DNA of 64,000 nucleotides from Aurantibacillus circumpalustris (lineage in GTDB: Bacteria > Bacteroidota > Bacteroidia > B-17B0 > Aurantibacillaceae): positions 2,666,001 through 2,730,000 of the forward strand of contig NZ_CP121197.1 in NCBI RefSeq assembly GCF_029625215.1, written 5' to 3'. Position numbers and translations under genes: made by a program. The notes under the pieces are model-generated. The model had not been told where the DNA came from. It did not search any database and worked only from the letters and a program-made list of their open reading frames with translations. Each line of letters starts with the position of its first letter. Position 1 is the stretch's first letter. This document shows, in pieces, positions 7,758 through 9,530 of the stretch.

Positions 7758-8945
7758 TTAGTCTAAAATTTCAGTTACTTGACCAGCTCCTACAGTACGG
7801 CCACCTTCACGAATCGCGAAACGTAAACCTTTATCCATAGCAATTGGGTTAATTAAATTAACAGTAATTGTTACGTTATCACCAGGAAGAACCATTTCAC
7901 GTCCTGCTTCTAACTCGATTTCTCCAGTTACGTCAGTTGTACGGAAATAGAACTGTGGACGATATTTGTTTTGGAATGGAGTATGACGTCCACCTTCTTC
8001 TTTTTTCAAGATATACACCTCAGCTTTAAATTTAGCGTGTGGTTTAACAGTACCTGGCTTAATAATAACCATACCACGTTTGATGTCTTTTTTCTCAACA
8101 CCACGTAATAATAAACCTACGTTATCTCCAGCCTCACCGTAATCTAAAATTTTACGGAACATCTCAACACCTGTTACAGTAGAATTTAATTTTTCAGCAC
8201 CCATACCAATGATCTCAACTGGATCAGCAGAGTTGATAACACCAGTCTCGATACGACCAGTAGCAACAGTACCACGACCAGTGATCGTGAACACGTCTTC
8301 AACCGGCATTAAAAATGGCTTATCTTTTTCACGTGGAGGAATTGGAATGTAAGTATCTACAGCTTCCATTAATTCCATGATTTTATCAACCCATTTAGGA
8401 TCGTTGTTTAATCCACCTAAAGCAGAACCACGGATAATAGGTGTGTTATCACCATCAAACTTGTAGAAAGTTAATAATTCACGAATTTCCATTTCAACCA
8501 AGTCTAATAACTCAGCATCTTCAACCATGTCAACTTTATTCATAAACACAACTAATTTAGGCACACCAACCTGGCGAGCTAAAAGGATATGTTCACGAGT
8601 CTGCGGCATTGGTCCATCAGTAGAAGCAACTACTAAAATTGCACCGTCCATTTGAGCAGCACCTGTAACCATGTTTTTTACATAATCGGCGTGACCTGGA
8701 CAGTCAACGTGAGCGTAGTGACGGTTAGCTGTAGCGTACTCAACGTGAGATGTGTTAATTGTAATACCACGTTCTTTTTCTTCAGGAGCGTTATCAATTG
8801 AAGAGAAATCACGGATTTCACATAAGCCTTTAGAAGCTAATACTGTTGTAATAGCAGCGGTTAAAGTAGTTTTACCGTGATCTACGTGACCAATAGTTCC
8901 AATGTTTACGTGTGGTTTGGAACGGTCGAATTTTTCTTTTGCCAT
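7758..8945 (-). CDS. tuf: Elongation factor Tu
   Basis: EF-Tu (395 residues) delivers aminoacyl-tRNA to the ribosome. G1 is GHVDHGKTT near residue 19. G3 is [12 protein letters not shown] around residue 80. G4 is NKVD at about residue 135. Domain II contains [12 protein letters not shown], and the C-terminus ends [14 protein letters not shown]. Length is normal. It lies between the four-tRNA cluster and tRNA-Trp/secE, the same order as E. coli thrU-tyrU-glyT-thrT-tufB. No second copy is in the window. Confidence 0.99.
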
Positions 8946-9000: not shown

Positions 9001-9048
9001 TAATTGAGCTGTTGAGCAGTCCCGATAGCTATCGGGAGAGCTGCCGAC
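9001..9048 (-). repeat. Broken partial copy of the tRNA-Thr 3' end with an inserted palindrome
   Basis: Bases 9001-9019 are identical to 9084-9102, the acceptor and T-arm end of the intact tRNA-Thr plus its trailer. CTGCCGAC at 9041-9048 also matches the tRNA at 9110-9117. Between these matches the T-loop is replaced by 21 bases that include TCCCGATAGCTATCGGGA (9020-9037), a perfect 18-bp palindrome. It is a remnant rather than a working gene. See the finding on its origin. Confidence 0.7.
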
Positions 9049-9089
9049 TTCCCTATTGAGCACCCTGTCAATGCTCAACATCTTAATTG

Positions 9090-9161
9090 AGCTGTTGAGC
9101 AGGATTGAACTGCCGACCTCCTCCTTACCAAGGAGGTGCTCTACCACTGAGCTACAACAGC
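9090..9161 (-). tRNA. tRNA-Thr (GGT anticodon)
   Basis: The acceptor GCTGTTG pairs with CAACAGC. The D-arm contains TAGCTCAGTGGTAGAGC. The anticodon stem CCTCC/GGAGG closes the loop TTGGTAA, giving anticodon GGT. The T-arm contains GCAGTTCAATCCTGC. The discriminator is T and no CCA is encoded. It is the last of four clustered tRNA genes, directly upstream of tuf. Confidence 0.96.
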
Positions 9162-9258: not shown

Positions 9259-9404
9259 CAAAAATTCTTGAAACTGATACCAGTTTCTCGTCTCTTTGTC
9301 ACCTCTTTTCCTAACAAAACCAGGAAGGCGTATTTTCCAACTTCACTTTTCTTAACCTTTTTAATTAAAAAGACCGAAAGTTTTTTTGAGTCTAAGAAGG
9401 GTCT

Positions 9405-9422
9405 TCCCGATATTCATCGGGA
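9405..9422. repeat. Small palindromic repeat TCCCGAT-ATCGGGA
   Basis: TCCCGAT (9405-9411) and ATCGGGA (9416-9422) form a 7-bp hairpin with a 4-base loop. The arms match the outer part of the 18-bp palindrome at 9020-9037, which suggests one dispersed family of short palindromes. It lies in the trailer of tRNA-Gly. Just beside it is GAGCGGTCTATTT (9441-9453), a 13-mer that recurs in the repeat-rich spacer near 37538. Confidence 0.5.
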
Positions 9423-9457
9423 TAAACTTTTCGACCCGTCGAGCGGTCTATTTTTTG

Positions 9458-9530
9458 AGCGAAAGACGGGTCTCGAACCCGCAACCTCCAGCTTGGAAGG
9501 CTGGAGCTCTACCAATTGAGCTACTTTCGC
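9458..9530 (-). tRNA. tRNA-Gly (TCC anticodon)
   Basis: The acceptor GCGAAAG pairs with CTTTCGC. The D-arm contains TAGCTCAATTGGTAGAGC. The stem CCAGC/GCTGG encloses the loop CTTCCAA, giving anticodon TCC. The T-arm contains GCGGGTTCGAGACCCGT. The discriminator is T, as usual for Gly, and no CCA is encoded. It follows tRNA-Tyr in the cluster. Confidence 0.95.

Follow-up and report, generated by a model that had tools for sequence, protein, structure and literature searches.

A palindrome at the T-loop position of a decayed tRNA-Thr copy in Aurantibacillus circumpalustris, and hairpin-capped tRNA copies in its genus

Between tuf and a tRNA-Thr gene of Aurantibacillus circumpalustris, the end of the tRNA gene is found a second time, and a short palindrome lies within this second occurrence. 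This raises two questions: how the repeat arose, and how a palindrome came to lie inside it. They are addressed here with the window, that is, the whole stretch of 64,000 nucleotides that was analysed, with the remainder of the same genome and with the genomes of related species. The answer that we favour, with middling confidence, is that the second occurrence is a tandem copy of tRNA-Thr(GGT), now decayed, in which an 18-bp palindrome of a dispersed family has taken the place of T-loop bases, and that this copy is one of a genus-wide set of hairpin-capped tRNA copies, for which we infer a mechanism acting at hairpin tips.

The tRNA-Thr copy and its surroundings

The intact parent gene, tRNA-Thr(GGT), is at 9089-9161 on the minus strand (ARAGORN), and the next gene downstream of both the parent and its copy is tuf, which encodes EF-Tu (7758..8945, minus strand, Pfam). 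A preliminary description of this DNA had reported that 19 bases of the tRNA-Thr end and trailer are repeated; indeed, the segment TAATTGAGCTGTTGAGCAG at 9001-9019 is identical to 9084-9102, which comprises the 3′ end of the tRNA and its trailer (BLAST E 2.3e-5). The copy begins 83 bp away from the matching stretch of the parent. It is interrupted at 9020..9037 by the 18-bp sequence TCCCGATAGCTATCGGGA (no strand), a palindrome that is perfect, as had been stated, and for which the window gives a single match and 100 shuffled versions give none. Past the palindrome, the eight further matching bases that had been described are found as CTGCCGAC at 9041-9048; they correspond to the 5′ side of the T-stem of tRNA-Thr and belong to a degenerate version of it at about 9038-9052 (minus strand). 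Since T-stem sequence is thus present on both sides of the palindrome, the latter occupies the position of the T-loop, as previously proposed, and the copy in a sister genome, G034, indicates that the bases replaced were AATC. Repeat comparison, BLAST and the G034 copy together delimit a decayed tandem copy of tRNA-Thr at 9001..9083 (minus strand), downstream of the parent. Within it, a search for inverted repeats returned TGTTGAGCA (9072..9080, minus strand), which is, on the transcript strand, complementary to the tRNA 3′ end TGCTCAACA. By its letters, this segment could pair with the 3′ end of either the parent or the copy; in the minimum-energy fold of the copy it pairs locally instead.

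A second case is found nearby. The intact tRNA-Gly(TCC) gene (9457..9530, minus strand, ARAGORN) is followed by a degenerate copy of its 3′ end and trailer at 9382..9404 (minus strand), with 83% identity over 23 nt and an E value of 0.97, which is weak alone. At the T-loop end of this copy lies a second palindrome, TCCCGATATTCATCGGGA (9405..9422, no strand). The flank past it (9423..9450, minus strand) contains TAAACTTTTCGACCCGTC, which, judged by eye, mirrors the 3′ end of tRNA-Gly and is similar to the flanks in genomes G022, G012 and G013. Clear Gly copies that carry related palindromes of the family occur in G022 and G012; in G013 the copy is also clearer than that of the window but carries a hairpin of another kind, and the copy in G008 is degenerate.

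The spacers between tuf and tRNA-Thr were compared by eye at 30 loci (29 of the genus and one outgroup). A copy of the palindrome type is found in three of them, with an exact palindrome in the window's genome and in G034 and one base changed in G020; another insert is found in four (G030, G006, G007 and G036), and in the other 23 no copy of the tRNA-Thr end was seen. In G034 the palindrome is followed by GAACTGCCGACCTCCTCCTT, which comprises the T-stem, the variable loop and the 3′ side of the anticodon stem, so this copy has kept a large part of the tRNA's 3′ half, more than the copy in the window does. Taken together, these observations fit a tandem copy that decays and that can be lost between direct repeats. 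The preliminary description had named an identical arrangement of identical length in distant relatives as the mark of a conserved structural element; such an arrangement is absent from the spacers compared, and the sister comparison it had suggested finds the palindrome present in some related species and absent from the same place in others. At locus L035 of genome G014, the tRNA-Thr 5′ end can also be seen by eye to be repeated in tandem several times, with another hairpin (CCCTGTCTTTCGACAGGCAG type) inserted in every copy.

The capped copy might alternatively act as an RNA element in the tRNA-tuf transcript, for instance by mimicking a tRNA, by taking part in processing or by making tuf mRNA more stable. 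The predicted folds do beat those of shuffled sequences (z of -3.5 for the Thr copy, -2.2 for the Gly copy and -3.4 for a tRNA-Val repeat unit described below), and the flank of the Gly element is similar in several species. Nevertheless, the palindrome alone raises the fold score, the Thr copy is missing from most tuf spacers (23 of 30), and capped copies of other tRNAs are located outside the tRNA-tuf operon as well. Such a function is therefore considered quite improbable.

The preliminary description had instead read the repeat as the scar of an integrase-type element, and this part of it is not supported. On such a reading, an element with a tyrosine recombinase would have entered tRNA-Thr and later disappeared, leaving the 3′ end duplicated, and the palindrome would have arrived afterwards. 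The 19 exact bases of the tRNA 3′ end repeated 3′ of the gene are what such a scar would leave. However, there is no element between the tRNA and the copy, and no integrase is found by Pfam among eight window proteins near the site, which are rpoB, rplA, nusG, tuf, an RsmF-like methyltransferase, RecX, an SDR protein and one protein without a match. Moreover, the repeat is not confined to the 3′ portion of the tRNA, as the copy extends 5′ of the T-loop to include the 5′ side of the T-stem and, in G034, also the 3′ side of the anticodon stem. Other tRNAs show similar structures at their anticodon arms and 5′ parts; the 5′ parts of Val, Cys, Arg(TCT) and Ser(GCT) are copied elsewhere in the genome, for which the att sites of integrases would not account. 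An integrase origin is, in consequence, extremely unlikely.

Palindromes and tRNA copies in the window's genome

A count of the palindrome by context throughout the genome, which had also been suggested beforehand, bears out the link with tRNA copies. There are 32 palindromes of the form TCCCGA-N2..14-TCGGGA in the window's genome, while a control with the reversed pattern gives none. More than half (17 of the 32) lie within tRNA copies, namely those of Thr, Gly, Ala(GGC) and Ala(TGC) and an array of Val copies; the other 15 are away from the tRNA places given by Rfam. If clusters are counted once, five of 20 palindrome loci are tRNA copies. For comparison, sequence no further than 300 bp from a tRNA makes up about 0.4% of this genome, by arithmetic from the Rfam tRNA places.

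Conversely, the surroundings of all 37 tRNAs found by Rfam were scanned for copies, a few hundred bases on each side. Partial copies on the same strand (E of 0.01 or better) are located beside 11 of 35 tRNAs called by ARAGORN, with three pseudo-tRNAs excluded: Thr, Val, Cys, Ala(GGC), Ala(TGC) twice, Arg(TCT), Arg(CCT), Met, Ser(TGA) and Ser(GCT), with the Gly copy falling below the E cut. The most extensive case is beside tRNA-Val(TAC) at locus L200 (C1:2149400-2152400), where hairpin-capped fragments of tRNA-Val form an array with a period of 89 and 10.4 copies that are 98% alike. Each unit runs from the 5′ part of the tRNA through TCCCGACTAACGTCGGGA, which replaces the anticodon arm, to the start of the T-arm.

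In the window's genome, the broken end of a copy often adjoins a hairpin: nine of 12 hand-listed copies have a perfect stem of at least 6 at this end, compared with 7.3% of random sites (n = 3000). Several of these caps, those of Arg(CCT), Arg(TCT), Ser(GCT) and Met, are outside the TCCCGA family. In G030, copies are located beside 11 of 45 tRNAs, and just four of the 11 have a perfect stem of at least 6 at the break. Consequently, the generalisation that every copy is capped was abandoned, suggestive as the nine of 12 in the window's genome are.

Position in tRNA loops and at other hairpins

In tRNA copies across the genus, 3-7 nt of the D-, anticodon- or T-loop, or else the whole anticodon arm, have given way to palindromes; this is seen in copies of Cys, Met, Arg, Leu, Phe, Asn and Val. 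Examples of replaced bases are AATC in the T-loop of Thr, AGT in the D-loop of Cys and CTGGCAG in the anticodon loop of Ala. In a sample biased by the choice of some loci for their tRNAs, a tRNA-like flank that exceeds the 99th percentile of the null is found at 33 of 90 family hairpins. In a set of loci that does not include E. coli, flanks of tRNA sequence on both sides are found at 28 hairpins, which represent 15 distinct events when merged by tRNA type and junction. Of these both-sided junctions, 14 overlap a tRNA loop (9.7 expected, p 0.010), the sole one off a loop being in the Cys copy of G034, and the replaced stretch is entirely within the loop in eight of 13 (2.8 expected, p 0.0018), where two cases of whole anticodon arms are excluded and the arm coordinates are hand-entered; both tests were framed after the pattern had been noticed, part of the loci had been chosen for their tRNAs, and some events may share descent. 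This placement is confined to junctions flanked by hairpins. When all breakpoints of copies are considered, capped or not, nine of 27 are within 1 nt of a loop compared with an expected 44.5% (p 0.92; tRNAs with an unparsed structure string excluded), and the idea that all tRNA copies break at loops was accordingly dropped.

A preference for hairpin tips can also be looked for at sites of the exact 18-mer in general. A set of 57 sites of the genus was used, from which sites chosen by similarity to the window had been removed; it contains 20 of the 21 sites of G030 (one merged as a duplicate), all eight of G034, all four of the window's genome, 10 of the 13 of G006 and one each from 15 more genomes. 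The mean stem score of the flanks is 3.43, compared with 2.24 (sd 0.19) for re-paired flanks, a value reached in none of 2000 re-pairings. A score of at least 5 is found at 10 sites (2.7 expected) and one of at least 7 at seven (0.64 expected). Thus, about one in six sites of the genus is at a clear hairpin tip, and the other 47 score below 5.

Some of these hairpins are found both with and without the palindrome. For instance, the spacer between rplL and rpoB contains a hairpin that has no palindrome in the window's genome (4242..4275, no strand); among 76 rows compared, one of them incomplete, TCCCGATAGCTATCGGGA is found in this spacer only in G030, where it lies in the loop of the matching hairpin. 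Likewise, the spacer that separates tRNA-Thr from tRNA-Gly has a hairpin whose loop holds the palindrome in G020 and, in a version differing by one base, in G030; in G005, G018 and others this loop is empty. By eye, the tip of the rplL-rpoB hairpin apparently holds other palindromes or repeats in further lineages, of the CCCCGAT types at loci L140 and L147 and a longer repeat at L132.

Of 40 genomes from the genus, 19 contain the exact 18-mer, and the number of copies per genome is 0-26. In a sample of the phylum it is present in 23 of 296 genomes, all of them among the 73 of the same class and none among the other 223. Outside the genus, 40 sites show no bias towards hairpin tips (mean 2.19 vs 2.26) and only one is flanked by a tRNA, with a further case, a copy of tRNA-Trp in G038 (L186), found by eye. 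The lack of tip bias and the rarity of tRNA flanks indicate that this placement is a trait of the genus and not of the palindrome wherever it occurs; a universal targeting of hairpin tips by the palindrome failed on these 40 sites.

These figures bear on the possibility that the palindrome lands anywhere and that insertions into RNA-hairpin loops and spare tRNA copies are merely the ones tolerated. The missing tip bias outside the genus would agree with this, as would the 47 of 57 genus sites that are not in strong stems. On the other hand, ordinary intergenic DNA far exceeds tRNA copies, yet the latter account for a quarter of the loci in the window's genome (five of 20), and decayed copies would presumably have no loop structure left to protect. 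Random insertion followed by survival is hence regarded as unlikely.

Candidate mechanism and known systems

Breakage and joining at hairpin tips, accompanied by tandem duplication, appears to be the best mechanism for these observations. In such a scheme, tRNA genes and other inverted repeats would fold into hairpins when single-stranded, and the tip of the hairpin would be cut, or skipped in replication. Repair would then join a short palindrome in place of a few bases of the loop. At a tRNA gene the cap would be tolerated only with an intact copy alongside, so the survivors would consist of an intact gene and a capped tandem copy. Afterwards the repeats could recombine with each other and so amplify the copy, as in the Val array, or delete it; deletion may have occurred at the Thr site of G005, G018 and G025, unless the copy was never there.

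A different account dispenses with any mobile element. Slippage in tRNA hairpins during replication, by template switching, could produce partial tandem or fold-back copies, and the palindromes would arise or be perfected locally. Several caps do not belong to the TCCCGA family (those of the two Arg, Ser(GCT) and Met copies), the caps at one site differ between species, and the Gly and Thr copies hold stretches complementary to the tRNA 3′ end, all of which would be in line with it. Nevertheless, the identical 18-mer is found at unlinked sites and in nearly half of the genomes from the genus (19 of 40), and local synthesis is not expected to yield such recurrence. This account is possible, although we hold it to be somewhat doubtful.

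Small GIY-YIG proteins are possible agents of such breakage at hairpin tips. Among six of the seven GIY-YIG matches in the window's genome, one is of UvrC length and four of the remaining five listed adjoin tRNA-Val (two ORFs), Ala(GGC) and Arg(TCT), all three of which have copies. In G030, where six of nine matches are listed, four lie no more than about 350 bp from Met, Ser(GCT), Leu(CAA) and Arg(ACG), copies being found for the first three of these tRNAs. Over the genus, 30 loci were returned and one with a 391-aa frame was excluded; of the 29 best-match loci, eight have tRNA sequence within 500 bp and 21 have none, and each of the five with an intact tRNA nearby also has a partial tRNA copy. 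Small GIY-YIG ORFs are seen close to tRNAs at L200, L202 and L204 in the window's genome and at L338, L350, L357 and L358 in G030, and at most of these loci, though not at L350, the ORF is located between the tRNA and its partial copy. At the Thr site of the window, no GIY-YIG ORF is found among the matches listed (six of seven in this genome). These ORFs are possibly a homing-like element. A tentative and rather improbable extension of the favoured mechanism is that the genus has a break-and-copy process, perhaps carried out by structure-cutting GIY-YIG nucleases, in which the tips of stem-loops (tRNA genes, attenuators and terminators) are cut, the palindrome is joined and a tandem copy is left.

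The gene of phage SegB sits among tRNA genes. This protein is an example of the free-standing GIY-YIG homing endonucleases (described in the available part of PMC13096335). The genus resembles this type of system in that several of its loci have a small GIY-YIG ORF placed between a tRNA and a partial copy, and the window site differs in having no such ORF among the matches listed.

That a tRNA 3′ end can be copied from the T-loop onward is itself already known from one locus. In E. coli MG1655, tandem repeats with spacings of 178 and 178 follow tyrV (L361, 1285900-1287500), and their units hold the 3′ end of tRNA-Tyr, starting inside the T-loop (AATCCTTCCCCCACCACCA, 19 nt). These 178-bp repeats are the tRNA-linked repeats of the RttR region. 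Like them, the Thr copy, which is a single unit, is downstream of its tRNA and holds the 3′ end from the T-loop on. Unlike them, the copies of the genus are not limited to tRNA 3′ ends, as the 5′-part and anticodon-arm cases of Val, Cys, Arg(TCT) and Ser(GCT) illustrate; the tyrV repeats are at one locus and include the 3′ end only, with no TCCCGA palindrome seen and no case in a D- or anticodon loop.

The palindrome, in turn, is comparable to bacterial REP elements, palindromes tagged with GTAG or CGTC that are also short, dispersed and present in many copies (available text of PMC3733652). Some REP families are inserted within palindromes, for example GTAG-15 of A. variabilis, GTAG-23 of T. 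roseum and CGTC-1 of H. neapolitanus, and the available text of the same source contains no placement of REPs in tRNA loops (PMC3733652). REP counts for Flavobacterium genomes are given in PMC12306157, in the available part of which nothing is said of tRNA loops. In contrast to REP elements, the family described here has no excess of either tag beside it (GTAG at five of 65 sites, 5.2% at random; CGTC at none of 65, 2.9% at random) and no clear tie to a Y1 transposase. Matches to Y1_Tnp are found in 16 of the 19 genomes of the genus that bear the palindrome and in 13 of the 21 that are free of it, and G030, with 21 copies of the palindrome, has none; a RAYT/Y1 transposase does not clearly qualify as the mover. 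Target-site duplications, a mark of MITEs and transposons, were not found at 65 sites either, with seven matches of 2 nt (4.2 expected) and one of 3 nt (1.1 expected); at longer lengths there are one of 4 nt (0.25 expected), none of 5 nt and one of 6 nt (0.03 expected).

Other likenesses are found in organelles. The RHE of sponge mitochondria (PMC2800124) and the GC42 clusters of yeast mitochondria (PMC4478555) are, in the available parts of these sources, small, hairpin-forming and apparently mobile repeats that are patchy among close species, as the palindrome of the genus is. One sponge RHE copy is located in rnl (available part of PMC2800124). They differ from the present family in being organellar, and the accessible portions of PMC2800124 and PMC4478555 contain no rule of placement in tRNA loops. 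A text search of the literature with the 16-mer core of the palindrome gave no match, and in the open-licence literature no palindromes in tRNA loops were found, nor the combination of several tRNA loops, 5′ and 3′ parts and a shared palindrome.

The window site is part of a wider pattern in which tRNA-linked repeats are combined with REP-like palindromes, and the mechanism set out above is what we infer for it. The same loop swap beside several other tRNA genes in A. circumpalustris and related species hints at an undescribed route of DNA breakage and copying at hairpins. How short palindromic repeats spread in bacteria and choose their targets is poorly known. Here the targets can be read: they are the loops of tRNA copies and some hairpin tips, with filled and empty sites among sister species. 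As the original loop of each tRNA is known, the tRNA serves as a ruler, and each event reveals the bases that were replaced. A break-and-copy process, if true, would mean that repetitive DNA has an insertion specificity of a new kind, and would provide a way for altered tRNAs to arise.

There is also a warning for annotation, as tRNA finders can report hairpin-capped pseudo-tRNAs as real genes. Outside the window, after the tRNA-Ile and tRNA-Ala of both rRNA operons, ARAGORN calls a tRNA-Glu(TTC) (L203:588-664 and L223:605-681). The gene in L203 is a copy of tRNA-Ala(TGC), with an alignment score of 42 compared with 10.5 for the other tRNA-Glu, in which the anticodon arm has been swapped for TCCCGAGTTTCACTCGGGA; the same letters are found in L223. 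Under the break-and-copy reading, this copy in both clusters would be one of the products. Speculatively, if it were transcribed and charged with alanine, it could cause misreading of Glu codons. Elsewhere in the genome, at L009 (C1:3667577), TCCCGATAGCAATCGGGA apparently lies, by eye, inside the N-terminal part of a pirin-like ORF.
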